This document shows positions 1 to 39,616 of a stretch of DNA of 64,000 nucleotides, piece after piece (position 1 is the stretch's first letter; each line of letters begins with the position of its first letter). The stretch covers positions 961,001 to 1,025,000 of the forward strand of contig JAQISU010000167.1 of the NCBI GenBank assembly GCA_029339505.1, written 5' to 3'. The DNA comes from Unio delphinus. Its lineage: Eukaryota; Mollusca; Bivalvia; Unionida; Unionidae. Below the pieces are notes generated by a model. It made no database searches. It was not told the origin of the DNA and saw only the letters and a program-made list of their open reading frames with translations. Both the position numbers and the translations under genes were made by a program.

Positions 1-3000
1 CACCAATGATTTCATCATCGCCTGACTCTGTCAGGACAACTCTTCGAAGTTGATTTAATCTCCTCACTCTGGATACTGCAAGATAGACTAAATTCGACCA
101 TTCGATGCGATTATCTACCATCCAAACAATTGTATCCGATATAGTCAATCCCTGTGAAGAATGTATCGTCGCTGCGTATCCTAGCGTCCACGGGGATTTA
201 TTAGCACGCAATGCATCTTCAACGACGCTGATATCAACCAGCACAATATCATTTAACACGAGAATCTGCTTTTCACTCTTCCCTGGAATATCAACTTCAA
301 TATTCTGCTTTCGTGTATCTGAAGGCCTATAACACAACGGTACTGGAAGTGTTGCAAATTTTTCTTTATGCATTTCAAATAACTTCATCTGAAGTGTGTC
401 TCTGACTATTTTTCTACTTGCTACTATCAAATCATTTGGTCTCCACGTTTCCCAAAAATCATTCATGGGAGTTTCTGAAATTATTTCATGCGCTATTTCA
501 CATTGGATTTTATCCGGCTGTAATCTAATCAGTGCTTTGAACTCGCGTAATTGTTCATCAAGTGATCTATAATCAGTAGTAATTTCTTCATAGTAGTCTA
601 CAAAAAAACCCTTTAGCCATTCATGTGGAGATGCACCGACAAATGGTGGTGGTTGGCCGTGATCACCACACATGACGATTTTTGTGTTTTTGTTTAACAA
701 CCATTCGAGAAATGTTTGTAATACTCTCAACGATACCGTGCATATTTCATCCCAAATTATGATTTCAGGAATGAATTTATCACCCATTTGATCAGGGGTC
801 CATTCATCGCCTTTCCATCGAAAGAAACTGTGATAAGTACATGCATTTACCCCTCGCTGTATCATCTCTCTGGCGAGTCTGTGAGTCGGTGTTAACACAA
901 TCATATTTGACCGACGATATAATTCAATTGCACGAGTTGTCTTTCCTGACCCACCACAACCGTTTAAATAAACTGTCTTGTGTCTATATATTGGATCAGA
1001 TACCGGTGGTGCATTAGAAAATGATTGAATCTTATCACACTTTAAGTACTTTTCATCCATGGTAACATCTGCTGATTCACAATACTCATGTAGTTTTTCC
1101 TTTTTAAATCGCCAACGTCCCCAGTTTTCCTCGGGATCTGTGAATTTAGCTACATCTGATTTGTATTTCTCGTGGATATAAATAGAATCAGTGGCTACTC
1201 TAACTGCGTTATTAGGAAATCTATTTATCATCAAAAATAAATTGAAAGAAGCATAAGCTAGCATAGAACTTCTCAGATGTGTGTACTGGGAATTATATCC
1301 ATCACAATAGGTAACAACCGTACCCAATTTCTCACCATTGGATAGAAAAACGTCTTTACGATTTACAAGTTTTCCCTGTTTCGTTAAATCCGTTACAATA
1401 AAATCGTATTCAGCGACGTCTATGATCAACCGCGAGGAATATTTTGCATTGTCGTATCTTCCACCCTGGGTAAATTTACCGATTATTCTTCGTCCAAAAT
1501 CTTTTGCTTGTTCTTTTTTAATTTCAAATAACTTTTTAGACCAATTCATGACTTCTTCCTCGCTGAAATCTGGAAATTGTTTTCGCTGTTCGCTAATTAT
1601 ACGATCTAGATCGGGTTGTGGTAGCCAAACTTCTTTCTGAGCTCGATAGCATATAATAGCTTCGGAAACAATCAACGATTGTAACATCTCACAATCAATC
1701 ATATATCGTAGTAACACTATTGGCATCCAGGCCTTTTCAGATATATGTCTACCAAGCCAAACATAACTACACGGATGTAACCCTGTAGCGAGTTCAAATG
1801 ATATCACACGAGCGAATCCGGTTAAATCAAAATCAGGTAATGGCCCATTAATCGCAACACGAGTCATTTCATGCGTGGGGTGTCCAAATCGTTTAAAGTA
1901 CTCAGCGGCTTCTCCATATCCTAGAAAACTCCCTGGATAACACGCAGCTTTATCAATTGAAATCATACCATCACGATGGTATTTTGTATTCCACAGTCCT
2001 CCATGACTAAATTCGACGCAACTCAATTTAACATCCTCGAGAAAATCACTTCGTGTTGGACGCCACGAGTTTTTTTCTCTTGCGAAGTGAGCTACCACTG
2101 ATGGAATAGTAAAACTTTCCGTGAGTAGTTTTTCATGGAAACTCTCCGGTGAAAAATCATTAGCGATTTTTCTCATTCTGTTATCTAATTCTTCAACGCG
2201 ATATAATTCACCATTTGGTCTTACAAATTGATCAAATACTATTTCGGGATCTTCATCACTTCTAAGTAACCACACTGACACAGGATCATCTTTACACAAC
2301 GCATGAATAGCATCGAATAATTTCTCATTATAAAAAACATCTCCGACGAATTCCTCGGGGATATATCTCACGGTTCTATCTCGTGGAAATATTGTTACTG
2401 CAGGTGTCCACGCGTGTTCGTTATGATCAATAATTTGTATTGGAGCTCCATTTTTGTTATATTTCGGTTCGTATAAAACTTCTCCAGTTATCGTCATTAC
2501 TGATATTGGGAATCTTAATGATGTTTCTAATTTAGCTATATCAGAAATCTTTGCACCGTGCTGTTTCACTGTCAGTTCCCATTCGGTTATTTTCCTACAT
2601 CGCAGATCAGTTAGTTTATTTCCTCGGGATGCATTTGTGAAGTGTTCCATTACCCGTGTTGCTACACAATTCAGTGAACTAGAATATTTCATAGGAGCTA
2701 GTTTTGCGATATCGGGTTTATCATTTAACGGATATATCCCATAAACGATTGCTGTTACAGGATAAGATCTCTCGTAGTATGGTTTGTCGATTCCAATTAG
2801 AATTCCTGGTTTGGAATCTCTACTCAGCGTGATTGTTTTTTTATCCTTGAGGATTGGTTGAAATTTATCCCTGATAATCCATTTGCCTTTGACTTCGATA
2901 ATGAATTTTATTCTGATAAAATACTTCTGTTGGGAATTGCTTTGCAATTTACCCTTGGATTTCCCGCCAAGGTGTGAAATGATCTCAGCTGCTCTTTCAT

Positions 3001-3229
3001 CATTCATGGTAGCATCGATGTTAGGTACATTGACATCCTCGTGTATAATTCGAAATGTCGACCAACAGTATGCTGCACCGTCTCGGTAGAATTCATTAAA
3101 ACACTCCTTGATTTTACTTAGTATAGTTCTGTCACCGATTAGACGTTTTGGTGTATCAGAGACTCTATCGAGATTGAATTTAGTATTTCTCCAAGGTTCG
3201 ATTTTCGATAATCTCTTGAACTCTTCCAT
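1..3229 (-). CDS. PolB-like DNA polymerase / SF1 helicase replicase (element A, 3' end outside window)
   Basis: The frame is open from the ATG at 3229 to the window edge with no stop, about 1076 codons. It is the sister of the element B gene at 33269-37117 and includes the PolB-like palm region and the SF1 helicase. The helicase P-loop is encoded around 950 and the glycine/serine-rich late helicase motif near 150. The C-terminal HNH domain seen in B would lie beyond the window. The start is chosen at the conserved residues MEEFKRL, shared with the B copy. Unlike B, the N-terminus carries only one copy of the basic EFKRL unit. It diverges from the Cys-rich gene at 3272 across a 42-bp AT-rich gap, probably a shared promoter region. 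No break is seen, so this is the better-preserved copy. Confidence 0.85.
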   Translation of the reverse strand, partial: MEEFKRLSKIEPWRNTKFNLDRVSDTPKRLIGDRTILSKIKECFNEFYRDGAAYCWSTFRIIHEDVNVPNIDATMNDERAAEIISHLGGKSKGKLQSNSQQKYFIRIKFIIEVKGKWIIRDKFQPILKDKKTITLSRDSKPGILIGIDKPYYERSYPVTAIVYGIYPLNDKPDIAKLAPMKYSSSLNCVATRVMEHFTNASRGNKLTDLRCRKITEWELTVKQHGAKISDIAKLETSLRFPISVMTITGEVLYEPKYNKNGAPIQIIDHNEHAWTPAVTIFPRDRTVRYIPEEFVGDVFYNEKLFDAIHALCKDDPVSVWLLRSDEDPEIVFDQFVRPNGELYRVEELDNRMRKIANDFSPESFHEKLLTESFTIPSVVAHFAREKNSWRPTRSDFLEDVKLSCVEFSHGGLWNTKYHRDGMISIDKAACYPGSFLGYGEAAEYFKRFGHPTHEMTRVAINGPLPDFDLTGFARVISFELATGLHPCSYVWLGRHISEKAWMPIVLLRYMIDCEMLQSLIVSEAIICYRAQKEVWLPQPDLDRIISEQRKQFPDFSEEEVMNWSKKLFEIKKEQAKDFGRRIIGKFTQGGRYDNAKYSSRLIIDVAEYDFIVTDLTKQGKLVNRKDVFLSNGEKLGTVVTYCDGYNSQYTHLRSSMLAYASFNLFLMINRFPNNAVRVATDSIYIHEKYKSDVAKFTDPEENWGRWRFKKEKLHEYCESADVTMDEKYLKCDKIQSFSNAPPVSDPIYRHKTVYLNGCGGSGKTTRAIELYRRSNMIVLTPTHRLAREMIQRGVNACTYHSFFRWKGDEWTPDQMGDKFIPEIIIWDEICTVSLRVLQTFLEWLLNKNTKIVMCGDHGQPPPFVGASPHEWLKGFFVDYYEEITTDYRSLDEQLREFKALIRLQPDKIQCEIAHEIISETPMNDFWETWRPNDLIVASRKIVRDTLQMKLFEMHKEKFATLPVPLCYRPSDTRKQNIEVDIPGKSEKQILVLNDIVLVDISVVEDALRANKSPWTLGYAATIHSSQGLTISDTIVWMVDNRIEWSNLVYLAVSRVRRLNQLRRVVLTESGDDEIIG

Positions 3230-7804: not shown

Positions 7805-9229
7805 ATGTTTAAGCGAACAGCTGATCCCGCGCTTGATATGGAAGCCCCAGTGCACAAAGACGATTCCGTCCGCGATTATCAATACTATTCCTATCATGCA
7901 ATACAACCCGACCTACGATCGCAAATTGAACTACAAGTTCAAGATACCAGTAAATACTTTTTGCCATGTGAAGCATTTATTGAAATCGAGGGAAAACTCA
8001 TAACAAATGTTGCAGCTGATACCCCATTTGCAGATGATCCAAATATCCGAGTTGGTTTCGTCAACAATGGCATCATGGCGTTATTTGAAAGTGCAAGATA
8101 TCTCATTGATGGAAAAGAAATTGAATCAATAGACCGCGAGGTTGATGTTGCAACAACAATAATCCGGCTAGCAAGATACTCCGATGATTATACAAGATCG
8201 GCTGGTCCGTCTATGATGTTTGCAAAGGATACCTCTGATAACGCTGACCACCTTCAATACATTAAAGTGTTAACAGTACAAGATACTGCCGAAGCAAACC
8301 AACAAGAAGCAGCTAATCCAGAACGTCGAGCTAGACCAGGAGCTGAGTTTGATATTCTCAGAGGCGTTAATGGTAATTTCAATTTGGGATTTGCAACACG
8401 AAAAGGAGCATTGCAAGGACAGCAGCGATATTTTTCATGTGCGATTCCACTCCATCACATATTTGGATTCTGCAGAAATGTCAGAAAAGTCATCTATGGA
8501 GCCAAACACACAGTCGCGTTAGTGCGAAAAGGCAATGACAATGATGCTATTTGGCGTACTGGTGCCACTGATGGTAAAGTTGTTTTGAGTAAAATAGTAT
8601 TGTGGATGCCAGTAATGACCCCATCAATTACCACGGAAGAGCGGCTACTTTCATTTATGGACACAGGTGGCAAATCATTGATAAGTTGGCTAACAACAAC
8701 AACTGATGCCAAAGAGGATAATGTTGCTGATACATTTACATGGCACCTGGCATCAAAACAAGGCGTTTCAGCTCCACGTCATATATTTATAGCGCTGCAG
8801 AATCGGGATCGATTAGGCTCCCAAGAACGCAGTCATATGATATTTGATCGGTTAGGAGTCAAGGAGGTTTCACTGAGAATAAACGGACAACAAGAACCAT
8901 CTGAAGATATTCAGCTTGATTACGACACTAACCACATAGCACGTGTGTATCATCGGATGCTGTCATATATGGGTCGTGATCAAAATGTTGATACTGGTTT
9001 GCAAATATCGCAACTTGATTTTAAGAACTTGTATCCGATTTATTACTTTTCGCTGGAACATCTTGATTTAACAAGGCAATCCGTCGTTGATATACACTTC
9101 AGAGCTCGTATAGCTCCTGGTGGCTTTAATTATAGAGCGATTGCTGTCATTCTCAGTGATAAATCAATGTTGTTAGAAGGGGTTGGTGGACGAATGAGAC
9201 TTATTGATGCACCAGTGGAAAATATGTAA
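7805..9229 (+). CDS. Major capsid protein, double jelly-roll type (element A)
   Basis: An intact 474-residue protein, the expected size for a small double jelly-roll capsid protein. Residues about 215-245 carry the block IPLHHIFGFC...VIYGAKHTV...DNDAIW, which I associate with capsid proteins of Polinton-like animal elements. It would assemble as trimers on the capsid faces. The B copy (28057-29478) is collinear but has two TGA codons. The gene is followed without spacing by the pX-like frame (TAA then ATG). The ATG at 7805 is supported by the same N-terminus in B (MFKR, then DPA and DMxAPV). No break or missing segment is seen, so this copy could still make protein. The fold is inferred from context and motif, not modelled. 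Confidence 0.85.
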   Translation: MFKRTADPALDMEAPVHKDDSVRDYQYYSYHAIQPDLRSQIELQVQDTSKYFLPCEAFIEIEGKLITNVAADTPFADDPNIRVGFVNNGIMALFESARYLIDGKEIESIDREVDVATTIIRLARYSDDYTRSAGPSMMFAKDTSDNADHLQYIKVLTVQDTAEANQQEAANPERRARPGAEFDILRGVNGNFNLGFATRKGALQGQQRYFSCAIPLHHIFGFCRNVRKVIYGAKHTVALVRKGNDNDAIWRTGATDGKVVLSKIVLWMPVMTPSITTEERLLSFMDTGGKSLISWLTTTTDAKEDNVADTFTWHLASKQGVSAPRHIFIALQNRDRLGSQERSHMIFDRLGVKEVSLRINGQQEPSEDIQLDYDTNHIARVYHRMLSYMGRDQNVDTGLQISQLDFKNLYPIYYFSLEHLDLTRQSVVDIHFRARIAPGGFNYRAIAVILSDKSMLLEGVGGRMRLIDAPVENM

Positions 9230-23905: not shown

Positions 23906-23910
23906 CCCTT
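23906..23910. other. Target-site duplication CCCTT, left
   Basis: CCCTT directly before the left terminal repeat; CCCTT again at 39440-39444 directly after the right one. Polintons usually duplicate 5-6 bp. Confidence 0.7.
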
Positions 23911-24136
23911 AGCAGCAGAGGGGGCGAGCCGGACAACATTTTTAAACAAGTTTTCAATGAAATCAGGCTTAAAACAATGAAATCAGGCAAAAAAAATTAA
24001 AAAAATCAATGAAATCAGGCAAAAAAAAATCAATGAAATCAGGCAAAAAATAATAATAAAAAAATCAATGAAATCAATGAAATCAAAAAAATGACTAAGC
24101 CTCCATTCGATTTTCAACCGAATATTTGATCCAATC
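23911..24136. repeat. Left terminal inverted repeat of element B
   Basis: 226 bp, pairing with 39216-39439. The outer end is AGCAGCAGAGGGGGCGAGCC. The middle is an array of AATGAAATCAGGC units, and the inner end is TTTGATCCAATC. Small indels in A-runs distinguish the two ends. Confidence 0.9.
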
Positions 24137-24164: not shown

Positions 24165-25556
24165 CTACGACTTTACAAACAGACTTATTTGTAAAACCTC
24201 ATCTTGTAGATCAATCAGATTATTAGACTGGTCAGTGAGTTTGAAATTAATTCTGGTTAATGAATTATTATGACATCGCATATAGACTGGATTCACCGGG
24301 GACTCAATTATTAAAAATCCTGGAGGGGCTGTTGGTGCAAATGAATACAAAATATACCCCTGCTGAGCTTGATTTGATCGTTCTAAATTTATTTGATAAC
24401 TTCCCTCAATAACATCGCATACTAAATTGAGCGCAATCACCGATGAAATATTCACGTTGAACGGAGCGATATGCCTGCCACCGCCATCTGGGTCATTATT
24501 GTGTTTGAGGATTTTTATTTCCGGTGATGATGTTTTTTTCCACGTATCATGAATTATTTTAAAACCAACATCGATGGCATCATTGAGAAGTTTTTTTAGT
24601 TCTGGTACGTTATATCCTGGTAGTTTGAATGTCGGAATATCTTCAACGCGGATTTTATCATCTGATGCAAATATTGTTCTCGATAGGGGATTATCGTCAT
24701 CTAATATAACTCGAATAATTTGTGAATTTAATTTTTCCATATCGTCGATAATTTTATTGCATGTTTCTACGACGCTGATAAATTCATCTCGGGTAAGAGA
24801 GCCGGTTTTAAGAGGTATTAACAACAGTGAAAAATCATTATTCATTGCTGTGATATTTTTAACGATTTTAGGTTTGTCAACAAAATAATGTCCCTCTATT
24901 TCATCCCCTTCCTTCTCTTCCCCAGTTGGGTAGTATCCGAGACCAAAAAAATCTAAGGGTATACTGTACTCTTTATAACTTTTTACTGGATTATAAGGTG
25001 CTATCACGTCGGTGATATAATCAGTTTTTTGTGGTTCTGGTAAATTAACGGTTTTTCCCCCGGATGGGATTTCAGGCCATCCTAGTACGGTTCTAATAGA
25101 ACTTTGATAGATATCTACGACGTAACCCTCTGTGCTTATTTCAATGGCAGATGATAGTGTTGGCTCATGAACTGTTATAGCTATTTTTGATTCTTTTCCA
25201 GTAATCGATTTTATTCTACGCGCGAATTCATTATTGATTTGTTCAATTTGGTATGATCCAGTTGGTATGGAAACAACGTTCCAGTCTGGGGTACCGTCGT
25301 CTGTATTCTTATTTGCAAATACCAGTGAATTATTGGGTTGTTGGCCACCAAATGATTTTGACCTAATATTAGGCCAACTGTGATACACTCGTAATTTTGC
25401 TAGCGCTATCTCCTTCACTGGGACTGGAGAGGGGAAATTCACACTGAATTCTGGATTCGTTGAGGTTATTGATATCATGCTGGTTTGTACTGGGTTTGTG
25501 TTCTCCACTATTTGCTGAAGTAATTCCATCTGTGTTGTCATTGTTATTATACTCAT
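24165..25556 (-). CDS. 463-residue structural protein, possibly penton-like (element B)
   Basis: Intact, 463 residues and collinear with the A copy at 11887. The N-terminal blocks (EFSVNFPSP, PTGSYQIEQINNE, IRTVLGWPE) and C-terminal blocks (FNVNISSVIALNLVCDV) are almost unchanged. Differences cluster in residues about 180-230 and 280-300. That full length is kept in a copy whose other genes carry stops suggests chance or late inactivation. It is the outermost gene, ending 28 bp from the terminal repeat. Likely a virion vertex or minor capsid protein by context; the family name is not certain. Confidence 0.65.
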   Translation of the reverse strand: MSIITMTTQMELLQQIVENTNPVQTSMISITSTNPEFSVNFPSPVPVKEIALAKLRVYHSWPNIRSKSFGGQQPNNSLVFANKNTDDGTPDWNVVSIPTGSYQIEQINNEFARRIKSITGKESKIAITVHEPTLSSAIEISTEGYVVDIYQSSIRTVLGWPEIPSGGKTVNLPEPQKTDYITDVIAPYNPVKSYKEYSIPLDFFGLGYYPTGEEKEGDEIEGHYFVDKPKIVKNITAMNNDFSLLLIPLKTGSLTRDEFISVVETCNKIIDDMEKLNSQIIRVILDDDNPLSRTIFASDDKIRVEDIPTFKLPGYNVPELKKLLNDAIDVGFKIIHDTWKKTSSPEIKILKHNNDPDGGGRHIAPFNVNISSVIALNLVCDVIEGSYQINLERSNQAQQGYILYSFAPTAPPGFLIIESPVNPVYMRCHNNSLTRINFKLTDQSNNLIDLQDEVLQISLFVKS

Positions 25557-26137: not shown

Positions 26138-26148
26138 TTTTTATTTTA

Positions 26149-26170
26149 AAAACGCTAGCGTTTTCAATTG
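26149..26170 (-). promoter_or_regulatory. Palindromic late-type motif before the membrane protein gene (B)
   Basis: AAAACGCTAGCGTTTT next to CAATTG. It occupies the same position as the A motif at 11254, with G-C in place of A-T at the variable pair, so the palindrome is kept by paired change. Confidence 0.7.
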
Positions 26171-26199
26171 TGAAATCCGAAGGATTTTCCTTTCAATTT

Positions 26200-27027: not shown

Positions 27028-27049
27028 GTTATTGTAAAACTCTTTCTCT

Positions 27050-27472
27050 TTAAAATCGTTTTGATTTCCAGCGACTACTAGTGTATTCATTTACGACAAT
27101 AGGAGGTGGTTTTCTAGATGCTGAAATAGCGTTAAGGACATTTAATACTTCGCTGCCGCATATTGGTGGGTCATTGATTTGTTGTGTTGGTAGCGTAGAA
27201 TACCAAGTCTTCATTGGAAAATTTTTTATATAACGCATAAACTCTTTTGGCGGGGCTAATCCATATGAATCAAAATAGACAATCCCACGTGGATCAATAG
27301 CGTATGCAACCCAGTGAGTTCCAGGTCCGGTGCTGTTATCGAGATTAATAATACCTGTTTCAGTTTTGTTTGGTTGATGTGGTAATTGATCTTTTATAAA
27401 AACACCTCTGAAATTTTTAATCGCTAGTTTTTTAGCAGCATCCATTAAATCAAAATTGGACATTGGAACCAT
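27050..27472 (-). CDS. Adenain-type cysteine protease (element B)
   Basis: An intact frame of 140 residues from the ATG at 27472 (MVPMSNFDLMDAA). An upstream ATG in the same frame lies in the C-terminal repeats of the pX-like gene and is less likely. The catalytic histidine is in GTHWVAYAID, the acidic partner in YFDSYGLAPP, the Gln in TQQIND and the nucleophile Cys in PPICGSEVL, all in the order of the C5/Ulp1 clan. It would mature virion precursor proteins. The sister gene in A is frameshifted, so this is the reference copy. It ends just before the fibre-like gene. Confidence 0.85.
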   Translation of the reverse strand: MVPMSNFDLMDAAKKLAIKNFRGVFIKDQLPHQPNKTETGIINLDNSTGPGTHWVAYAIDPRGIVYFDSYGLAPPKEFMRYIKNFPMKTWYSTLPTQQINDPPICGSEVLNVLNAISASRKPPPIVVNEYTSSRWKSKRF

Positions 27473-27486
27473 CAAAGATTCCTCAA

Positions 27487-27996
27487 TTAATAAACTGTTC
27501 CTGGTAGTCTTAGACCCCTTCCGCTGTACCATGAATACGGGGTTCCTGGTAGTCTCAGACCTTTTCCGCTGTACCATGAATACGGGGTTCCTGGTAGTCT
27601 TAGACCCTTTCCCTTTTTTTTATATCCTTGTCCAGTTGCCTTTTTTAGTGCCATTCCTGCTGCAGTACCAACGGCTCCTAACGCCGCTGCTTTAGCCACT
27701 GCTGGGGCTGCTGCTGCAATCAATGCTGGTATTGCAGCTAGCAATGGAAATATACCGCCTGTTTTAATCATATTTTTGATAGCAGCCGCAGAAAGAGTAA
27801 TCTGGACACCTTTTTTTGCTACAAGTGCATCATTGAAATGTTTTACTTGACGAGTTGTCAGCGATAATTTATTTGCACCACCAGTCATTTGATTGGGTTT
27901 CAACGTGATTGTGGTTCCACATTTTTTAGCCGATTCTGATTGCAATTTTTTGATTTGACCAGGAGTTAACGCAACACTAATAACACTATATGACAT
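27487..27996 (-). CDS. pX-like minor virion protein (element B)
   Basis: 169 residues, beginning MSYSVISVAL. Two LTxxQ motifs (ALTPGQIKKL, SLTTRQVKHF) are followed by GGIFPLLAAIPAL and an Ala-rich hydrophobic segment, then a basic stretch. The C-terminus carries three GLRLPGTPY units, two of them full GLRLPGTPYSWYSG repeats, one unit more than in A. The repeat number therefore varies between copies. The LPGTP string also occurs in the PLA2-like protein of this element. Likely a membrane-active minor virion protein, by analogy with adenovirus-like viruses; the homology is not proved here. Confidence 0.7.
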   Translation of the reverse strand: MSYSVISVALTPGQIKKLQSESAKKCGTTITLKPNQMTGGANKLSLTTRQVKHFNDALVAKKGVQITLSAAAIKNMIKTGGIFPLLAAIPALIAAAAPAVAKAAALGAVGTAAGMALKKATGQGYKKKGKGLRLPGTPYSWYSGKGLRLPGTPYSWYSGRGLRLPGTVY

Positions 27997-28056
27997 TATA
28001 CATAATAGATTGATTCTAAATCGTTTACAATTTCAATGAAAAATCGAGAAAATCAA

Positions 28057-29478
28057 TCAAAGATTTTCTACTGGGGCATCTACCACTCTCATTCTTCCTC
28101 CAACTCCTTCTAACAACATTGATTTATCACTAAGAATGACAGCAACCGCTCTATAATTAGCAATACCACCAGGACGGGTTACACGGGCTCTAAAGTGTAT
28201 ATCAACAACAGATTGTCTCATCAAATCAAGATGTTCCAATGAAAAGTAATAAATCGGATAGAGGCTTTTGAAATCCAATTGTGATATTTGCAAACCAGTA
28301 TCCACATTTAGATCACGTGCCATAAATGACAACAGGTTATGATAGACACGTGCAATATGGTTGTGAGTGTAATCAAGTTGTACATCTTCAGATGGTTCCT
28401 GTTGTCCGTTTATTCTCAGTGAGACCTCTCTAACACCTAACTGATCAAATATCATATGACTTCATTGTTGATTACCAACTCGTGCATTATTCTGTAATGC
28501 CACAAATATATGACGTGGAGCTGAAACACCTTGTTTTGATGCCAGATGCCAAGTAAATATATCATCAACATTATCTAGTTTAATATCAGTGGTCACTGAT
28601 AACCAACTCAATAACGACTTTCCTCCTTGGTCCATAAATGATAACAATTTTTCTTCTGCGGTAATTGATGGAGTTAACACTGGCATCCATAATGCTAGTT
28701 TTGTTAAAATGACTTTACCATCAGCAACACCAGCATCATGCCATATTGCATCATTATCAGTACCCTTTCGTACAAGCGCTACTGTGTGTTTAGCTCCATA
28801 AATAACTTTTCAGACGTTTCTACAGAATCCGAATATATGATGCAGTGGAATTGCACATGAAAACTGTCGACGCTGTCCTTGCAACGTTGATACACGTGTT
28901 GCAAACCCTAGGTTGTAGTTAGTAATATTATTTATGACATCAAAATCACCAGCTGGTCTTGTATATCCGGCTGGTGCTGGATTAACTGAAGAAGCATGTG
29001 TTGCCTTGACTCTAGAATACTGGTTGTGTTCAGGGTGATCAGTAATATCCTTAGAAAACATCATAGATGGACCCGCTGATCTTGTATAATCATCAGAATA
29101 TCTCGCTAACCCTATGATTGTTGTGGCCATATCAACATCACGATCAATGGATTCAATTTCCTTTCCATCAATGAGATATTTAGCGCTTTCAAATAACGCC
29201 ATGATACCGTTATTGACAAAGCCAACTTTGATAGTTGGGCTAATGTCATATGGAGGATCATTATGAGCAGCATCATTTGTTACAAGTTCTCCATCGATTT
29301 CGATAAATGCTTCACACGGCAAAAAGTATTTACTGGTATCATGAACTTGAAGTTCAATTCGCGATCGGAGATCGGGTTGTATTGCATGATAAGAATAAAA
29401 TTGAAAATCGCGTATGGAATCATTCTTGCCAACTGGGGCATCCATATCAAACGCTGGATCAGGTGACCTTTTGAACAT
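28057..29478 (-). pseudogene. Major capsid protein with two in-frame TGA codons (element B)
   Basis: Collinear with the intact A gene over its full length. The frame stays in phase throughout, but TGA occurs at 28810-28812 and 28462-28464. At the first, A has AGA within the conserved FGFC...VIYGAKH block; at the second, A has CGC before SHMIFD. No frameshift was found. The conserved blocks before, between and after the stops are still easily recognised, so inactivation is recent. The gene starts MFKR with the same N-terminal residues as A. Double jelly-roll capsid family by motif and context. Confidence 0.85.
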
Positions 29479-29534
29479 TTTATTCTATTTATCAGAGTCT
29501 AAATCGTGAAATCATAAAAAGATTTTCATCGTGA

Positions 29535-29550
29535 AAAACGCTAGCGTTTT
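29535..29550 (-). promoter_or_regulatory. Palindrome overlapping a stop codon, upstream of the capsid gene (B)
   Basis: AAAACGCTAGCGTTTT contains the TAG of the core-like gene and lies 57 bp before the capsid ATG. It could serve the capsid gene, or both the end of one transcript and the start of the next. Confidence 0.55.
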
Positions 29551-29987
29551 CGTCGTGGTTTTTTAAAGCCACTTCCCGCTATCATGTTTGCTATCATGTT
29601 ATTTTGGTCACTTGGAGTCACCAATGATGCTAGTTTTTCATCTACTGCGTTATTTATTATTTTACTAACACTTGCAGGCATTTCTGCTGTAGATGGCAAT
29701 GGTACCGGTTTCTTTTTTCGTCTCACTAATGATGTTATTTTATTCTTCGCGGCTGAAAACGCTTTTCCGGTAAGATCTCCAACAGCACCAATACCCTTAT
29801 CACGAATAACATCAATGGCTTTCATTGATAATTGTTTAGCTAACGGCATCACTTTTGGAGCCATTCTTGCAAATAACCCAGCAATGGTATTACCTAAACC
29901 ATCTCCGTAGTATGCTCTATAAACAGGCAATCGTGAATTAACTACATAGACGAGGGTTGGTTTATCATGATTGTAGTGTATGATCAT
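29541..29987 (-). CDS. Putative basic minor virion/core protein (element B)
   Basis: 148 residues. The N-terminus MIIHYNHDKP and SRLPVYRAYYGDGLGN are as in A. The centre keeps RDKGIGAVGDL and SAAKNKITSL, and the tail is GSGFKKPRRKR. It is 13 residues shorter than the A copy, mainly in the Lys-rich and Pro-rich linkers. Its position next to the capsid gene is conserved. Probably a DNA-binding or internal virion protein; family not recognised. Its stop codon lies inside a copy of the palindromic motif, and another copy lies just upstream of its start. Confidence 0.7.
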   Translation of the reverse strand: MIIHYNHDKPTLVYVVNSRLPVYRAYYGDGLGNTIAGLFARMAPKVMPLAKQLSMKAIDVIRDKGIGAVGDLTGKAFSAAKNKITSLVRRKKKPVPLPSTAEMPASVSKIINNAVDEKLASLVTPSDQNNMIANMIAGSGFKKPRRKR

Positions 29988-29994
29988 TATTATA

Positions 29995-30016
29995 AAAACA
30001 CTAGTGTTTTCAATTG
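29995..30016 (-). promoter_or_regulatory. Palindromic late-type motif before the core-like gene (B)
   Basis: AAAACACTAGTGTTTT next to CAATTG, ending 7 bp upstream of the ATG at 29987. Confidence 0.7.
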
Positions 30017-30044
30017 TTATTTATCTAATCAGTGATTTTTCAAT

Positions 30045-30991
30045 TCAGTCACTGTGATACCCATTTGCTAACTCGTCAATGAAATCTCGATATGTTTTGA
30101 TATCCATGATACCACCTTGAAATAACTGTCTACAGATATCAGCTGCTTCATTAATTATTTCCGGAGAGTTATTTCCGGCTCGTTTCCCTCCGATGAGAAC
30201 TTCTAACTGTGATCACTGAGAATGTTACCAGGACAAGTAACGCTAGTGTTTTCAACTATGCCGCTGCCTAAATACCCATCTCCAGTTGACTCCTCTTTAC
30301 CAAAAAATCCAGTTGGATACTCTACTTTACTCAATACTTTGTCTTTAAAACTCTCAAAATCATTGCGGTTACTTTCTGTGATTCTAAATCTACCACGGTT
30401 TGCCAGGTATACTTTTTTTATCCAATTCTCGTCGTTTTTTATATACTCTTTATACCCTTTGTTTACAGCTATTTCTCTTTTATCGAGTGAAAAATTCCGC
30501 GCGATAAAGTTAATTAAATCATTGTCATCTTTAAAATTTTTAATTATGCTGTATGCATAGTATGTAAATATACTTTGCGGTGAATACATGTTTTCTATAG
30601 TAACGTCTTCTTCCTCTTCTTGTTTTCTTGCAGTGGCACCTAGTTCTTCTAGTACTTGCTCTTTTTTTTGTTGTTGCCGTGAAGTAGCTACTATATCTAC
30701 TGGAAGTGTTTCTAAAGACTTTTTTGTTTGTTTAGTTCTTTTTGCTATTTTTTCTAACACAGGGAGAAAAGTCTCTTCTTGTTTTTTTCCTTGTTCAGAG
30801 ATTGTTGACACTATCTGTTTCGTTGTTGTAGTTATTGGTTTAAACAACTCTTCAGATCCCTCAGCAAAATCAGTCTGAAGACTCTGTCGTTGTTGCAGTT
30901 TATTTCTTACAGAGTCACGAATTGGTACAAATCTCTTAATTGCATCTAATCGTTCACGAGCCAATCAGGTCGTTAATGCTTCATGGACCAT
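30045..30991 (-). pseudogene. Conserved two-part element protein, disrupted (element B)
   Basis: From ATG 30991 the frame meets TGA at 30965-30967 (codon 9), where A has AGA. It then runs open to 30203, where a 4-bp deletion relative to A shifts the frame inside the NILSD motif. The conserved tail (VLIGGKRAGNN, NEAADIC) continues in the other frame to TGA at 30045. The N-terminal part is charged and coiled-coil-like with a Gln run; the middle has DNDLINFIARNFSLDKREI and YLANRGRFRI. In A the same middle segment is present but read in another frame between two A-run indels. Function unknown. Confidence 0.7.
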
Positions 30992-31978
30992 TATTTGAAA
31001 TCGCAAACCATTTTTCAATTGCAAAACAATTTTCCCCATCGATGATTCCACCCTAACGGTCCAATATTTTATTGCTGTGAAATATTTTTATTTTTATTGC
31101 TGTGAAATATTTTTATTTTTATTGCTGTGAAATATTTTTATTTTTTATTCACTGATTTCACTGATTTTTTGAAAGTTTTGGTGGTTTTTCACTGATTTTT
31201 TGACAGTTTTGGTGGTTATTCTCAAAGAAATTTTACGGTCAAGTAGTCGATTTTGCATGGGATTTTCCGTAGAGAAAAGCAGTTAGGATTGATTTTCATC
31301 GATTTTGAGCCAATTTTTGATGATTTTCAGTCATTTTTGATGATTTTTAGTCATTTTTTGATGATTTTTATCAAAAAACCACGTATGGTCAAGTAGTCGA
31401 TTTTGCATGGGATTTTCCGTAAAGCAAAGCTGTTAGGATTGATTTTGATGGTTTTTCAGTTGAGTGGTCGATTTTCCATAAAGACATGATTGTTGCAACA
31501 GAATCTAGTGCCATTGAAATATTTTTACTACTGAAATAATTTTATTTGTAGTGCCTCTGAAATATTTTTACTTTTTTGCCTGTTTATCTCTGATTTCACT
31601 GATTTTGTGTTATTTTTGTACCATTTTGTACCATTTTGATGGTTTTTTCAGTTGAGATTTTACGGTCAAGTAGTCGATTTTGCATGGGATTTTCCGTAGA
31701 GAAAAGCTGTTAAGATTGATTTTCATCATTTTTTTAGCTATTTTTCATCAATTTTTGCCTGTTTTCAGCGACTTTTGGTCATTTTTCATCGATTTTTATC
31801 AAAAAACCACGTAGGGTCAAGTAGTCGATTTTGCATGGGATTTTCCGTAGAGAAAAGCTGTTAGAATTTTATTCAGTGTGAAATAGTTTTTATTCACTGA
31901 TTTTGATAATTTCAATCAAAATATGAAAATCCCATTGAGATTTTACGGTCACAATAAAAAATGATAAGGGTCGGGCAA
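30992..31978. repeat. AT-rich repeat region private to element B
   Basis: No gene. A unit of about 65 bp with AAGTAGTCGATTTTGCATGG occurs near 31239, 31389, 31668 and 31818. GCTGTGAAATATTTTT occurs three times near 31075-31140, and TTTTTGATGATTTT runs lie between. Element A has no such block. Possible roles are replication origin, non-coding transcript or simple expansion; none is shown. Confidence 0.75.
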
Positions 31979-32326
31979 TCAATTTTCTTGAATTAATGCT
32001 CGTAGGTTTCTAATTTTAGAGTTGACTTCTTTTTTCAATTCGTATTCGTTACCTAATTCTTTTCGTATCCCCTCTACGATAGTATACAACGGAACGAACA
32101 CACTGATGTCACTGGAAAATGAAAGAGAGTCTCTAATAGAATTCTGAATTCTTTTGATGAGTGCATATTTCTTTGGTAGCATATATTTATTGTTGTTAAC
32201 TCCGTATTCTATATCCTGAAAATCAGACACAATTTGATCAGGATTTAACCCATCTGATAGTTTGATATCCTGATTTTTCAATTTTGCTATTTCAACTATG
32301 ATGCTATTCATGTTTTCAGAATTCAT
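31979..32326 (-). CDS. Conserved small helical protein (element B)
   Basis: 115 residues from the ATG at 32326 (MNSENMNSII). The frame is open further upstream into the HNH gene, but the A orthologue begins at the matching helix, so the downstream start is chosen. Shared motifs include LSDGLNPDQI, DIEY and LPKKY. Charged and helical, with no known domain recognised. It lies directly after the HNH gene, as in A but without the 1.35-kb spacer. Function unknown; grouped with the early-type genes. Confidence 0.7.
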   Translation of the reverse strand: MNSENMNSIIVEIAKLKNQDIKLSDGLNPDQIVSDFQDIEYGVNNNKYMLPKKYALIKRIQNSIRDSLSFSSDISVFVPLYTIVEGIRKELGNEYELKKEVNSKIRNLRALIQEN

Positions 32327-32369
32327 TATTCTATAACATGACATATCTCTAATTGAAAAATATGACGCA

Positions 32370-32861
32370 TTAGACATAACTAAATTGAACTTTTTGCCCG
32401 CGATTTTTTGAAATAGCCGATCGATAAATCCCCTCTGCAACGAATCGTACTGAGGCTCTACAAATATAGAAATGCCTACCGGCTTCATATAATGATTGAA
32501 ATATTTTCTCTTCGTTAGTTGTTGTATTCAAAGATTTTACTGGTTTCGCTTTTTTTGAACAAGTGCCAGTCCTTCCAGATGAATTATTCTCACTCTGTGT
32601 AACAGCTCGTAAATTATCTAAAGAATTGTTCTTCGGATTAGAATCGATATGATCAATAACAAAATCATCCTCGATCAATCCATTGAAACATTCAAATATG
32701 AAACGATGATTGAGATATTTCTTCTTTCCAGCGCCAAACATCAAGTACCCGTGATTATTCACAACACCAACTGATTTCTTCAGTCTACGGTTTCTTACAA
32801 CACCATCACTAGATGCTTCATAATTTGTAATCAAGGGATGCTGTCTGAATTCTTGGTTCAT
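32370..32861 (-). CDS. HNH endonuclease with NUMOD-like flanks (element B)
   Basis: 163 residues, exactly the length of the A copy. The N-terminal module has NYEASSDGVVRN and GYLMFGAG. The HNH core has NHRFIFECF, DFVIDHIDSN and NSLDNLRAVT, with the expected His and Asn residues in place. The C-terminal NUMOD1-like part has SLNTTTNEEKIFQSLYEAG. The A and B proteins have diverged clearly but keep all core residues, which argues for maintained function before inactivation of B. It ends 43 bp before the next gene and starts 14 bp from the Cys-rich gene. Confidence 0.8.
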   Translation of the reverse strand: MNQEFRQHPLITNYEASSDGVVRNRRLKKSVGVVNNHGYLMFGAGKKKYLNHRFIFECFNGLIEDDFVIDHIDSNPKNNSLDNLRAVTQSENNSSGRTGTCSKKAKPVKSLNTTTNEEKIFQSLYEAGRHFYICRASVRFVAEGIYRSAISKNRGQKVQFSYV

Positions 32862-32875
32862 TCGTATACATAATA

Positions 32876-33244
32876 CTATTGTTTGTCTAATTCATTGTTT
32901 GGTTCAATAATGAACCTTTCAATGTAGTCTTGAGGGGTTCTTATGATTTTGTCAAGGACGTTGTCAGTGTCAGGGTCAAAATTTCTGATTGATTGTCCAT
33001 TTTTTATTCTTTCATCATAATAACGCTTCAATTCCCTGTATCGCTTACCACCGCAATTTAGACATAATCGTGATTTTCCCCTGACCCCAACCCCACATCG
33101 AATACAAGGTAACGGACCAAGGCTTCCACGACGAAAGCTTTGCATATGATACCCACAGAACTCATTTCTGCATGATTTGTTACACGGGATTACTGATCCA
33201 ATCATAAGCCATTTGCAGTGATTCATTATACATAAATCTTTCAT
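32876..33244 (-). CDS. Cys-rich zinc-finger protein (element B)
   Basis: 122 residues from the first ATG; by comparison with A the start may be the inner MNHCKWLMIG (33226). Cysteines form CKW...PCNKSC...CGYH, then PCIRCG, LCLNCGG: enough ligands for two or three zinc sites. A basic helical tail follows (RYRELKRYYDERI). Intact, unlike the A copy. It is divergent from the replicase gene with only 24 bp between the starts, so both probably share a promoter. Possibly a DNA-binding regulator or replication accessory factor; this is inference. Confidence 0.7.
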   Translation of the reverse strand: MKDLCIMNHCKWLMIGSVIPCNKSCRNEFCGYHMQSFRRGSLGPLPCIRCGVGVRGKSRLCLNCGGKRYRELKRYYDERIKNGQSIRNFDPDTDNVLDKIIRTPQDYIERFIIEPNNELDKQ

Positions 33245-33268
33245 TTAAATGCTTGTTTTAATTATAGC

Positions 33269-36200
33269 ATGATGGAGTTCAAGAGATTGACTTCGAAAAA
33301 TGCTAAATTCAATGCTGATAAGGAGTTTAAGAGATTATTGAAAATTAACCCTAAATTTAATATCGATAAACCCAAAAAACGTCCAATAGACGGAAACATG
33401 AAGGAGTTTAAGAGATTATTGAAAATTAATATCGATAAACCCAAAAAACGTTCAAGAGACGGAAACAAACGTCCAAGAGACGGAAACATGAAAGAGTTTA
33501 AGAGATTATTGAAAATTAATATCGATAGACCCAAAAAACGTAACAAATGTCCAAGAGACGGAAACATGAAAGAGTTTAAGAGATTATTGAAAATTAATCC
33601 TAAATTTAATATCGATAAACCCAAAAAACGTGTAGTAGACAGAAATATGAGGGAGTTTAAGAGATTATTGAAAATTAATCCTAAATTTAATCGCGATTGA
33701 CCCAAAAAACGTAACAAGAAATTACCTTGGAAGGATGCTCAATTCAATCTTGATATAGTTTCTAATACACCCAAGAATAAAATTCTTGATAAACCCATCA
33801 GAGACTGTTTTAATGAATTCAAGCGTGATGGAGCATCTTATTGTTGGTCAACATTTCGAATTGATGGTGTTGACGCTACCATGAATGATGAAAAAGCAGC
33901 AGTGATAATTTCACGTCTTGGGGAAAAAAGTCATTTTTTCTGAATAAAATTCCTTATCCGTGAGGATGGAAAATGGATTATTAGGGATAAATTTGAACCT
34001 ATCTTGAAGGGCAAAAAAACTATCACCGTGAATCAGGATTCCAAACCAGGAATTTTGACCGGAATTGACAAACCCTACTACGAAAGATCTTACCCTGTCA
34101 CAGCAGTTGTTTACGGGATCTATCCGCTCAATGAAAAACCTGATATTGCAAAACTAGCACCCATGAAATATTCGACAGGGCTCAATTGTGTAGCAGAACG
34201 AATAATAGAACACTTCACAAATGCGTCCCGGGGAAATAAACTAACTGATCTAAGACGAAAAAAAATAACCGAGTGGGAATTAACGGTAAAAGAGCATGGG
34301 GCAACAATTCAGGATATAATTAAATTAGAAACATCATTGAGATTTCCAATATCGGTAAGAACAATCACCGGTGAAGTATTAAAAGAACCGAAATATCAAT
34401 CAAAAAAAGGAAACCCAATTGAAATTATTGATCATAACGAACACGCGTGGTCATCTGCAGTAACAATATTCCCACGGGATAGAACCGTAAAATATCTATC
34501 CCAAACCGAAGAGTTTTTTTCAGAGCAGAAATTATTTGATGCTATTTACCATTTGAGTAAAAACGATCCTGTGTCAATGTGGCTATTTCATAGTACTTCA
34601 GACGAAGAATGCAAATTTGATCAGTTTGTAAGGCCCAACGGAGAATTGTACCGTACTGAAGAACTGCATAATCAAATGAAACAACTAGCTAGTGAGTTTT
34701 CTGGGGAGGGGGAAGACAACGATCAATTATTAGCAAACTGTTTTACAGTACCATCAATTGCAGCACATTTTGCTAGAAAGAAAAACGCGTGGAAACCAAC
34801 ACGAAGTGAGTTTTTATCAGATGTCAAATTGTCTTGTCTTGAATACAGCCATGGAGGATTATGGAATACAAAATACGACCCTGATACCGTTATTTCAGTT
34901 GATATGATTGCATGTTATCCAGGAAGTTTTCTTGGGTATGGAGAATGCGAGAAATATTTTAAACGATTTGGACACCCCACACACGAAATGACCCGTGTTG
35001 CTATTAATGGACCACTGCCTGATTTTGATTTAACCGGATTCGCTTGTGTAGTATCATTTGAAATGGCTACAGGACTTCATCCGTGTAGTTATCTTTGGAT
35101 TGGTAAACACATGTCTGAAAAACACTGGATGCCAATAGTGTTATTACGGTATATGCTTGATTGTAAGATGTTAAAATCATTAATTGTCAGTGAAGCAATT
35201 ATATCCTATCGAGCACAGAAATCAGTCTGGTTACCACAACCTGATTTAGAAAAAATAATTAGCGAAGAGCGAAAACTGTTTCCTGATTTTAATGAACAAC
35301 AAATCAAGGATTGGTCCAAACAGTTATTTGAAATCAGAAACAATGAAGCAAAAAATCTTGGACGAAGAATAATCGGTAAATTTACCCAAGGTGGCAAATA
35401 CGACAATACGAGATATTCTTCACGATTGATTATAGACAATGCTGAATACGATTTTGTAATCGCGGATTTAACGAATAGGGGCCTATATGTCAATCGTAAG
35501 GACGCATTTATGTCCGATGGAACCAAATTGGGTACAATTGTTACTTACAATGATGGATACAATCCGCAGTACACACATTTGAGAGCTTCTATACTTGGTT
35601 ATGCTTCTATTAATCTGTTTTCAATGATAAATAGATTTCCTGACACCGCAGTTAGAGTTGCCACTGATTCATTTTACATAAATAGCAAAATGGCTGATTT
35701 TAAGGCTACTGGCAACGAGAATTGGGGGTCATGGAGAATTAAGAAGGAAATGCTTCATGATTATATTCAATCAGCAGATGTTACAATTGAAAATAATTAT
35801 TTAGAAAGCAATCAGTGTTCAGAATTTTCTAGTGCACCACCGATTTCTGATCCAATATGCCGGTATAAAACAGTTTATTTAAACGGTTGTGGTGGGTCAG
35901 GAAAAACAACCCGGGCAATTGAGTTATTTCGTGTTTCCAATCCAAATATGATTGTACTAACACCGACTCACAGACTTGCAAGAGAAATGATACAGAGAGG
36001 GGTAAATGCCTGTACCTATCACAGCTTTTTCCAATGGAAGGGAGATAAATGGACTCCTGAGCGTATGGGAGAGAAATTTATTCCTGAAATCATGATTTGG
36101 GATGAAATAGACACAGTGTCAGAAGATGTATTAAAAATATTTCTTGAGTGGTTGTTATTAAAAAATACAAAAGTCGTCATGTGCGGTGATCACGGCCAAC

Positions 36201-37117
36201 CACCACCATTTGTCGGTGCATCCCCACATGAATGGCTAAAGGGTTTTGTAGACTATTATGAAGAAATTGATACCGATCATAGATCACTTGATGAAAAATT
36301 AAAAGAATTTAAGAAATTAATTAGATTACAACCGGATAGAATCCAGTGTGAAATAGCCCGTGAAATAATTTCGGAAACTCCAATGAATGATTTCTGGGAA
36401 ATGTGGAGACCAAATGATTTGATCATTGCAAGTAGAAAAATAGTCAGGGACACACTTCAGATGAAATTATTTGAATTGCATAAACAAAAATTTGCAACGC
36501 TTCCAGTGCCTCTTTGTTATAGGCCATCGGATACACGAAAACAGAACATTGAAGTTGATATTCCAGGACAAAGTGAAAAACAGAATTTAGTATTAAATGA
36601 TATTGTGCTGGTTGATATCAATGTCGTTGAAGATGCATTGCGTGCTAATAAATCCCCATGGACGCTAGGATACGCAGCGACGATACATTCTTCACAGGGA
36701 TTGACTATATCGGATACAATTGTTTGGATGGTAGATAATCGCATAGAATGGTCGAATTTAGTCTATCTTTCAGTATCCAGAGTACGAAAAATAAATCAAC
36801 TTCGAAGAATTGTTTTCGATGATAATGACACCACAATAGATGATATTGATATTAAAATGATTGATAAAAAACTCTCCGGTTACAAACAACAGGACAAAAA
36901 AAAACGAGAATTTGACATTGATGCTGAATTAATAATCACTTTAAAGAAACAACAGAATAATCACTGCGCAAGTTGCAATTGTATAATGCGTTGGCAGTAT
37001 TCGGATAAGGATCCTCGCCAATTCACCGTTGACAGAAAAAATAACAATCTCGGTCATGTCAGAAATAATGTGATGTTGACTTGTCTTGAGTGCAATAGAC
37101 GCAAGGGTGCTAGTTAA
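33269..37117 (+). pseudogene. PolB-like polymerase / SF1 helicase / HNH replicase with two TGA codons (element B)
   Basis: One frame of 1282 codons interrupted by TGA at 33698-33700 and 33941-33943, in phase on both sides. At the second, A has AGA; at the first, sister repeats have AGA or AAA. Codons about 1-145 are an expanded array of EFKRLLKIN units. PolB-like palm: motif A at codons 543-553 (SVDMIACYPGS), a motif-B-like RRIIGKFTQGG, and motif C around codon 800 (VATDSFYI). SF1 helicase: GCGGSGKTT (873-881), WDEID near 945, GDHGQPPPF near 973, TIHSSQGLT near 1136. The C-terminus is an HNH zinc domain with CASC, FTVDR and CLECNRRK. It would copy the element. The fusion is the most unusual feature of this family. 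Confidence 0.8.
33272..33700 (+). repeat. In-gene tandem repeats encoding basic EFKRLLKIN units
   Basis: Five to six copies of a 60-90-bp unit with GAGTTTAAGAGATTATTGAA, variably lacking the CCTAAATTT part and with small duplications. The A gene has a single unit. The reverse strand is open only because of the repeat. Confidence 0.85.
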
Positions 37118-38054
37118 GACCATGCGGTGGCAATTGAGTATCCTCGGGTATTATTTGTAATTGTTGTCTAGTAAAAACCCGCTGAGGGGCAGTTGAATCC
37201 AGTTTATAGACTGGAGGTCTACCCGTAGATCGTGTTATACTAGATATCTTGTGTGTAGTAACACTCCAAATAGGATCAGTAGCCCTTTTTCTGCCACCCT
37301 CAAGCTCTCCTGGTTCATATAAATACCTCACAATGACATTACTACCAAGAATTGGTTCTTTGAAATCTTTTTGTGGTTTTTCAGGTATTGACTTCTTTTT
37401 AATCGCATTGATAGGTTTCATGTTGATTGTTCTAGTAATCTCGTTATTCAGTGCAGTAATCACAGCTGGTAACCTTTTAACCCATTCACGGGATCTTTTT
37501 TCTTGGATGAATTCTTTTGCGTATTGATATCCAAATAACCGCTCAGCAAGGGTTTTATTAAACCGTTCAACAATTGCCTGATCACGATGCAGTGCAGTAT
37601 GCCCCCGTCTGATAGTGACATTGTGATTTTTCATCGTTGTTAAAACAGCACCCTGAAATTCCTTGCCAGGATCAATTTGTAATAGATTTGGCCAGTGCAG
37701 AGGACCTCATCGATAAATCTTTTAAAATGCAGAAGCCACTTCAGGTGATGATTTTGTTTTTAACGGTTCTGCTTCTTTGTATCGACGTGCAATATCAACT
37801 ACGGTTAATGCGTATTTGTAACCATGGTCATGTGGCAAAAATAATAGATCAGCCTGATGAACTTCATTGGGTCCGGTTACATCAAAATGCGAGACATTAA
37901 TTTGTTTAGGCGGTGGTAAGTAAATTTGCCATAGTGCCTGTTTGGATAACCAATGAGCGGCAGTGGTTTTTTTCACTTTTGCAGCGCTAGCGAGTTTATG
38001 GATTGCTGATTTACCCCTCCTGTATCCTTTTGGAGAATAATAAATAGATTCCAT
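37110..38054 (-). pseudogene. rve-type integrase of Polinton/F54H12.3 type, two in-frame stops (element B)
   Basis: 315 codons from ATG 38054 (MESIYYSPKGYRRG) to TAG 37110. It inserts the element into host DNA. The catalytic core has the first Asp in HQADLLFL, the YALTVVD strand, the second Asp in QIDPGKEF and the Glu in IVERFNKTLAERL. The C-terminal SH3/chromo-like part has YLYEPGELEGG and ATDPIWS, which I associate with Polinton-class integrases. TAA at 37722-37724 and TGA at 37707-37709 interrupt the frame between the two Asp residues; both flanks are in the same phase. The family usually has Arg before GPL, the TGA position. The 3' end overlaps the convergent replicase by 8 bp. Confidence 0.85.
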
Positions 38055-38061
38055 GTTGTTA

Positions 38062-38561
38062 TTAATTACCAGCACCTAACATCAATTTACTTTTCATAGC
38101 CAATTTTTCTTTGAAGGATTTATCAGGAATAGCATTTAACGCATGAATTAATTTCACATCTGCTAGATGCCTGTGCTGCAAATTGCTGCTTTTATAAGCA
38201 ACATCATGAAGGTGACAGGCCTTATCAATAGTGTTTATTGGTTCCTCACCGGGTCGGGGCTGATTTTGATCACTGAGTCTGATATCAAGTCTTGTTCCCG
38301 GTCCACAATAACTATACCCTGGAAGGTGTTTTTCTCCGGGGTATTTTGCCCATGGGGTTCCAGGGAGTTTTGCTAATTTGGCAGCGATATCACCTCCTCG
38401 TTTTTTTTTAAAGGTTCCTTGGGTTTAGAAACAAATCTAAATTTCTTTGTACTACATTGTACGCATTTACCAGAAAGCGCTGATCAGTTATTTTTTGTTG
38501 TAATCGTCGTCAAGTCATCTGTGCCAGTACGTTTTTTACACTTCACACAATATAGATCCAT
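38062..38561 (-). pseudogene. Zinc-ribbon plus phospholipase-A2-like protein, disrupted (element B)
   Basis: Not visible as one open frame. From ATG 38561 the N-terminus has YCVKCKK, and 30 residues later GKCVQC, a four-Cys zinc ribbon of DUF5679 type. TGA at 38484-38486 falls where that ribbon usually has Arg. An A9 run at about 38401-38409 then shifts the frame. The second frame contains LPGTPW, then LPGYSYCGPGT, INTIDKACHLHDVAY and HLADVKLIHAL. The GPGT turn, the D-x2-C-x2-HD dyad and the later AD match the PLA2-like domain of parvovirus VP1 and related virion proteins, which acts on membranes during entry. It ends at TAA 38062, 8 bp before the integrase start. Confidence 0.7.
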
Positions 38562-38566
38562 AATTT

Positions 38567-39238
38567 ATGTACAGAGATATGAATATAATTGATTTTTCAG
38601 CAACTAAAACAAGAGAACCAGTTAAGCATCATGCAGCGCTACCAAACTCTATCCGCACAATTATAATCAGGCCATCTGGATCCGGCAAGACGCAATTGCT
38701 GCTCAATTTAATAATGAGATGGATGAAGTGGGATAAGTTGTATTTAATTGCCCCTAGCGTAGATGACCAACGATGCTATGAAGTGCTAAAAGATTTTAAT
38801 GAAAACGCTTCAGAGATTGCCGGCGAGGATGTTATTGAATTTATAACCGATATTGACGAGGCACCATCAGTAGAAGACCTCGATGGAAGTATCAACAATT
38901 TAGTTGTATACGACGATGTAATGTTAGATAAACAAAAAAACCCAGCTAGAATATTTTCCAGAGGCAGGCACAAAAACACGGATGTGATCTATGTCACTCA
39001 ACGATACACTCAGATTCCAAAAGTGATCAGAGATAACTGTAATATTCTTGCTGTATTCAACGGCGTTGATACACATACGCTACGAAATATTTGGCAGACA
39101 TGGTGTTCTGATATGGACTTCAATCAATTTAGAAATTTCTTTAGTCATGCTCAGTCTGCCCCACACGGATTTGTAACAATAAATTTACATGACCCTCGGA
39201 CACGATATCGTATCGGATTGGATCAAATATTCGGTTGA
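38567..39238 (+). CDS. DNA-packaging ATPase, A32/FtsK-HerA type (element B)
   Basis: 223 residues, intact. Residue 579-nt start MNIIDF (38579) is an alternative. Walker A is RPSGSGKTQLL, Walker B NLVVYDDVM, followed by the sensor-like VIYVTQRYTQIPK typical of A32-like ATPases of Polintons, virophages and large DNA viruses. It would pump the genome into capsids. The usual Gly before PSGSGKT is Arg here (AGG), a single G-to-A change that may weaken nucleotide binding. It is divergent from the zinc/PLA2-like gene, 5 bp between starts. The last eight codons and the stop lie inside the right terminal repeat. Confidence 0.9.
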   Translation: MYRDMNIIDFSATKTREPVKHHAALPNSIRTIIIRPSGSGKTQLLLNLIMRWMKWDKLYLIAPSVDDQRCYEVLKDFNENASEIAGEDVIEFITDIDEAPSVEDLDGSINNLVVYDDVMLDKQKNPARIFSRGRHKNTDVIYVTQRYTQIPKVIRDNCNILAVFNGVDTHTLRNIWQTWCSDMDFNQFRNFFSHAQSAPHGFVTINLHDPRTRYRIGLDQIFG

Positions 39239-39439
39239 AAATCGAATGGAGGCTTAGTCATTTTTTTGATTTCATTGATTTCATTGATTTTTCATTATTA
39301 TTTTTTGCCTGATTTCATTGATTTTTTTTTGCCTGATTTCATTGATTTTTTTTATTTTTTTGCCTGATTTCATTGTTTTAAGCCTGATTTCATTGAAAAC
39401 TTGTTTAAAAATGTTGTCCGGCTCGCCCCTTCTGCTGCT
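39216..39439. repeat. Right terminal inverted repeat of element B
   Basis: 224 bp, complementary to 23911-24136. It starts inside the ATPase gene at GATTGGATCAAATATTCGG and ends CTTCTGCTGCT. Confidence 0.9.
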
Positions 39440-39444
39440 CCCTT
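39440..39444. other. Target-site duplication CCCTT, right
   Basis: Directly follows the right terminal repeat and matches 23906-23910. Confidence 0.7.
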
Positions 39445-39616
39445 TGATTTGAATTTCTATTAATCATAACTGTTGCACGAGTACATCAGCTTGAAAGGAC
39501 AGGGATTATTTATCCATTTTTTAAAAAAACTTTAAAACATCAAAGTATATATAACAACCATGTTTATACAAGAACTTCTCCTTTGAATTGCCAACCAGTT
39601 GGGCATATCTTTTGTC

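Follow-up and report, generated by a model that had tools for sequence, protein, structure and literature searches.

The window analysed here is a stretch of 64,000 nucleotides from the bivalve Unio delphinus (assembly GCA_029339505.1, contig JAQISU010000167.1, positions 961,001 to 1,025,000 of the forward strand), and it holds two related virus-like elements, element A, cut by the left edge of the window, and element B (23911 to 39439, 15529 bp between inverted repeats). The right part of B carries a large gene in which a terminal protein (TP)-like domain, a vOTU cysteine protease region, an exonuclease remnant, a protein-primed-type PolB palm, a Pif1-like superfamily 1 (SF1) helicase and an HNH nuclease follow one another. 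With a probability of roughly 80 %, we read this gene as the replicase of a mollusc Polinton-like, virus-like element, of the type known as Tlr1-like helicases or pPolB-S1H.

The replicase frame and its relatives

In element B, the frame is broken into three pieces (Table 1), and the N-terminal domain spans the break made by two in-frame stops. A preliminary description had proposed one open frame from 33269 to 37117; neither this start nor the continuity of the frame survives, whereas the motif set and the fusion do. Palm motifs A (SVDMIACYPGS) and C (VATDSF), the SF1 motifs I, Ia, II, III, V and VI and a C-terminal C-x2-C...C-x2-C HNH end indeed share one frame (the motif labels are our own assignment), and the replicase of A is, as described, open over its visible part. 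The first piece of B contains basic tandem repeats of ~22 aa each (33269-33700, plus strand), with several units in the B lineage and one in element A. Replicase copies elsewhere in the genome also vary in length at N-terminal repeats of this type, which explain part of the length difference between copies.

In the replicase chain, the helicase follows the palm on its C-terminal side and is of the Pif1/Dda/RecD-like SF1 type, with matches to AAA_19 (E 1.3e-10) and AAA_30 (1.3e-8). Behind it, residues 963-1036 of a 1037-aa open reading frame (ORF) match a PHROG endonuclease VII (E 1.5e-9), and an HNH end is present in 16 of the 17 members of a 34-row family alignment whose sequence continues for 90 residues or more beyond motif VI, the sole member lacking it being a fungal gene model that ends early. 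A recent homing invasion by the HNH domain was considered and dropped. The vOTU region with its candidate Cys and His precedes the palm. A protein search of a phage collection returned 52 records, and among the 25 listed, matches were confined to the helicase region.

Relatives of the replicase numbered 32 proteins in a single-sequence search and 38 in a profile search (the lists overlap). Because of these matches and of near-invariant motif residues in the 34-row alignment, the fusion is more than a chance arrangement; it is a true fusion, and its architecture places it among replicases of a type already described. Named relatives occur in the soil fungi Diversispora, Gigaspora, Cetraspora and Racocetra (all of which we take to be Glomeromycotina), in the coral Desmophyllum pertusum, in the mussel Sinanodonta woodiana and in a Thiodiazotropha metagenome-assembled genome, the last perhaps representing clam DNA. 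In a midpoint-rooted tree of 40 rows (the 34 alignment rows plus six of 19 new proteins from the profile search), the two window proteins pair (95/91), are joined by two further proteins (100/99) and then by a set of seven that includes the mussel on a long branch (100/100). Six named fungal rows and one other row form one group (100/100), and the coral row falls among metagenome rows. Scans of viral_contigs with the replicase family and with a Polinton polymerase, as well as a scan of genome_contigs with the replicase family, gave no relatives.

Fold, catalytic residues and selection in the palm

The palm is recognized by fold and motifs. In a fold comparison (VIA), phi29 polymerase alone stands out, leading the next row by about 7 Z units, and motifs A, B and C occur in order, with spacings resembling those of the phi29, PRD1 and Polinton polymerases. 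Identity as a TVpol or primase replicase was dropped, as motifs and fold indicate PolB. In the family alignment (counted over rows with a letter at the position), the Asp of motif A is conserved in 33 of 33 rows and that of motif C in 31 of 31, while Lys or Arg stands eight positions before the Gly of motif B in 32 of 33. The exonuclease remnant, as in Tlr1-like helicases, is devoid of conserved catalytic acids, with no acidic column above 90 percent across residues 285-400 of protein P0033.

Selection was estimated between A and B over 962 aligned codons, giving dN/dS values of 0.14 for what B retains of the TP-like domain (64 codons), 0.16 for the vOTU region, 0.20 for the exonuclease remnant (with a dS of 1.44, near saturation), 0.26 for the palm and 0.17 for the helicase. 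Likewise, dN was below dS in every tabulated region when B was compared with 11 open copies, namely those of 38 loci that lie on the plus strand and have long open frames. Purifying constraint is thus clear in all parts of the replicase, the palm included.

Elements A and B and their copies in the genome

Element B is flanked by terminal inverted repeats and 5-bp target site duplications. Two further replicase-bearing copies have the same tip sequence as B, measure 15213 and 15138 bp between tips (manual count) and are flanked by TGGCT and GAAAG, respectively, so that all three copies examined at both ends show a duplication of 5 bp and none of 6 bp. From left to right, B encodes, on the minus strand, a minor capsid candidate, a weakly matched adenovirus-type protease, a split major capsid protein (MCP), several unassigned genes and an HNH_3 gene, followed by the replicase (plus), a broken putative integrase (minus) and the packaging ATPase (plus). 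A double jelly-roll (DJR) capsid and a packaging ATPase are hence both represented, by the MCP match on A and the ATPase match on B. The integrase assignment comes from one piece with an rve match below the curated cut-off (E 0.0073), the other piece giving no family match; the minor capsid candidate has no convincing family match either. According to translations, the gene order of B recurs in reversed direction in what the window shows of A, which extends from the replicase to the candidate minor capsid gene; an integrase and an ATPase of A would be located beyond the window edge.

Table 1. Features of elements B and A in the window
Feature	Position	Strand	Remarks
Target site duplication of B, left	23906..23910		5 bp, CCCTT
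Terminal inverted repeat of B, left	23911..24136	+	tip AGCAGCAG
Candidate minor capsid gene	24165..25556	-	463 aa; by position and counterpart in A (11887-13278)
Adenovirus-type cysteine protease	27050..27577	-	weak; Peptidase_C5 E 0.003, below cut-off
Major capsid gene of B	28057..29478	-	pieces 28057-28455 and 28810-29478; family match on A copy only
Free-standing HNH_3 endonuclease of B	32370..32861	-	separate gene; E 4.9e-15
5' replicase pieces	33236..33943	+	33236-33700 and 33701-33943, same frame as the ORF below; severed by in-frame stops at 33698 and 33941
Replicase ORF of B	33944..37117	+	open, 1057 aa; end of TP-like domain, vOTU-like region, exonuclease remnant, PolB palm, SF1 helicase, HNH
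vOTU-like protease region	34184..34447	+	Cys candidate in NCVA (34184-34195), His candidates in HNEHA (34433-34447)
PolB palm, protein-primed type	34871..35698	+	boundaries approximate; by fold and motifs
Palm motifs	A 34895-34927, B about 35351-35389, C 35660-35671 (ATDS)	+	
SF1 helicase, Pif1/Dda/RecD-like	35861..36823	+	boundaries approximate; motifs I, Ia, II, III, V and VI within 35885-36781
HNH / endonuclease VII-like C-terminal domain	36956..37093	+	C-x2-C...C-x2-C at 36965-37093
Putative retroviral-type integrase of B	37110..38075	-	two ORF pieces: 37110-37634 and 37722-38075 (weak rve match)
Packaging ATPase	38567..39238	+	Pox_A32 E 3.4e-10
Terminal inverted repeat of B, right	39216..39439	-	
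Target site duplication of B, right	39440..39444		5 bp, CCCTT
Replicase of A	2..3229	-	open to window edge, 1076 aa; window cuts before HNH
Major capsid gene of A	7805..9229	+	open; DJR-like domain E 1.1e-20

The free-standing HNH_3 gene differs from the HNH end of the replicase; a look-alike was seen by eye in A (3612-4103, plus strand), and the gene adjoins the replicase in both elements. Beyond the last gene of A, inspection by eye of 13270-13520 revealed no long terminal repeat of the B type; a AGCAGCAGAGAGGG stretch begins near 13341 and has an inverted look-alike near 13500. Roughly 50 bp beyond the right end of B begins a 61-bp tandem array (39493-41600), and a 32-bp array with raised G+C, open in some frames, occupies 48941-50500.

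Across the assembly (2.5 Gb, 1246 contigs), a protein search detected at least 44 replicase matches at 94 percent identity or more, a lower bound as only 44 candidates were scored; 33 of these 44 are free of internal stops, and their open frames reach 1300 aa at most. Three copies at G000:C58:6661837-6680891 begin exactly 7957 bp apart, which is less than the element length, as if part of an element had been tandemly duplicated. Classical Polinton pPolB genes coexist with the replicase in the same genome (75 candidates scored, open frames mostly of about 1361 aa). Many of them are nearly identical at loci L042-L053 of G000. In their products, the PF03175 match covers positions 8-365 of 468; SLYP, LNCLWGK and DTDS are retained in the one whose motifs were read.

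Alternatives, proposed mechanism and known systems

Several observations weigh against the reading as a pPolB-S1H replicase, most of them concerning the palm. Whereas fold and motifs single it out, no sequence profile finds it: a hidden Markov model of the family palm and its hhalign comparison with the phi29, PRD1 and Polinton polymerases stayed at noise level. Foldseek against the PDB gave no match at E <= 0.001, and model confidence is low at motifs A and C. If the middle region had some other fold and the structural matches were modelling artefacts, such results would be expected; the isolated position of phi29 polymerase and the order and spacing of the three motifs, however, render this very improbable. 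More serious is the possibility that the palm is a dead relic and the protein only a helicase with a nuclease, the element being copied by host or helper polymerases. Motif C has lost its first Asp throughout the family (of 31 rows, 29 have Ala and none has Asp in front of TDS), the usual Asn and Tyr of motif B are gone, constraint is weaker in the palm than in the helicase and indeed the weakest of all parts, and the title of a paper by Krupovic and colleagues (2016), known from reference lists only, calls the polymerase inactivated. Yet no row with a letter at these positions departs from the catalytic Asp of motifs A and C, the palm value still denotes clear constraint, and active polymerases without the same first Asp have been reported, according to section 10 of PMC11071308. 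We consider a relic unlikely, albeit worth keeping in mind, and lean to predicting an active enzyme.

Two further explanations concern the origin of the sequences. The replicase is encoded on the strand opposite to the capsid genes, and some genes of B are broken, as might be expected if two nested or chimeric elements had been mistaken for one, a point already raised in the preliminary description; but the whole of B sits within a single pair of terminal repeats with its 5-bp duplications, the part of A inside the window repeats B's gene content and order, and the two further copies, of which only tips and replicase were read, have the same tips, leaving this explanation hardly any room. A contaminating protist or fungus as the source, instead of the mollusc genome, could be suspected from a mitochondrial contig in the assembly (C871, L040), whose COX1 and NAD1 were read as ciliate-like, so that a ciliate probably came with the sample, and from a second COX1, on C445, that is open under table 11. 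Replicase copies, however, reside on contigs as long as 33 Mb, and C15 (18 Mb) carries them together with linker-histone genes that score the same as the linker histone of C403, for which the named animals among 120 listed of 3723 matches are exclusively molluscs, mostly bivalves. Contamination therefore appears most improbable.

As a Polinton-like replicase of the pPolB-S1H type, the protein might work as follows. A residue of the putative TP in the N-terminal domain would start DNA synthesis from the ends of the inverted repeats; cleavage of the primer part from the chain would fall to the vOTU domain, and strand copying by the palm would go along with duplex opening by the fused helicase. 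Copies would be inserted by the putative retroviral-type integrase with a 5-bp duplication. The computations bear out the gene structure, the element ends, the fold matches, the residue conservation and the selection, from which the roles of TP and priming residue, the cutting by the protease, the activity of the polymerase, its coupling with the helicase and the task of the HNH domain are inferred.

Earlier descriptions of the pPolB-S1H design come for the most part from viruses and elements of unicellular organisms; here it is met in an animal, with many open copies beside classical pPolB genes. Since both pPolB types are present in one genome, two replication systems can be compared in a single host. 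What the case adds is the host, the large number of near-identical copies, the presence of classical pPolB genes alongside and the selection acting on the palm; the latter, with the invariant catalytic Asp, bears on whether the fused palm is alive. It is conceivable, though we would not yet count on it, that a replisome contained in one chain (primer, self-cleaving protease, polymerase, helicase and nuclease) is a replicon type in active use among Polinton-like viruses (PLVs) of animals and fungi, standing beside classical pPolB in one mollusc genome and having moved between distant hosts, and that its weak palm signal partly explains reports of helicases fused to unknown domains in seemingly polymerase-less elements. 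Among the papers listed in literature searches, none could be recognized from its title or the start of its abstract as dealing with this replicase in molluscs or Glomeromycotina, and an earlier animal or fungal mention is possible.

Classical Polintons/Mavericks possess capsid, ATPase and integrase genes, terminal repeats and a 6-bp target site duplication, in contrast to the 5 bp found here. With the classical pPolB of the same genome, the mollusc replicase shares the protein-primed-type palm, but it lacks the conserved exonuclease acids and the DTDS motif, its motifs are changed and it is fused to a helicase and an HNH domain. In PLVs, duplications of 5-6 bp are on record, and cryptophyte PLVs have SF1 helicases with a C-terminal GIY-YIG as well as N-terminal HNH fusions (PMC12220804, in excerpts). 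OmPLV of the dinoflagellate Oxyrrhis likewise joins an SF1 helicase to a protein-primed PolB, but in reverse order, with the helicase N-terminal and the exonuclease retained in the polymerase; its authors call this fusion independent, as far as the available part of PMC12721341 goes. The closest likeness is to the pPolB-S1H of PLVs, Tlr1 of Tetrahymena and transpovirons. For Tlr1-like helicases, the accessible text of PMC11071308, which proposes the name pPolB-S1H, gives TP, vOTU, palm and SF1 helicase in this order, a missing first Asp in motif C and, in some members, a C-terminal GIY-YIG or HNH, and the Tlr1 element also carries an RVE integrase (PMC4642659 and PMC4028283, both in part). The mollusc replicase shares the vOTU-palm-SF1 order, the missing Asp, the C-terminal HNH of some members and, with Tlr1, the company of a (here putative) RVE integrase; it differs in its host, a mollusc, and in having kin in coral, mussel and Glomeromycotina.
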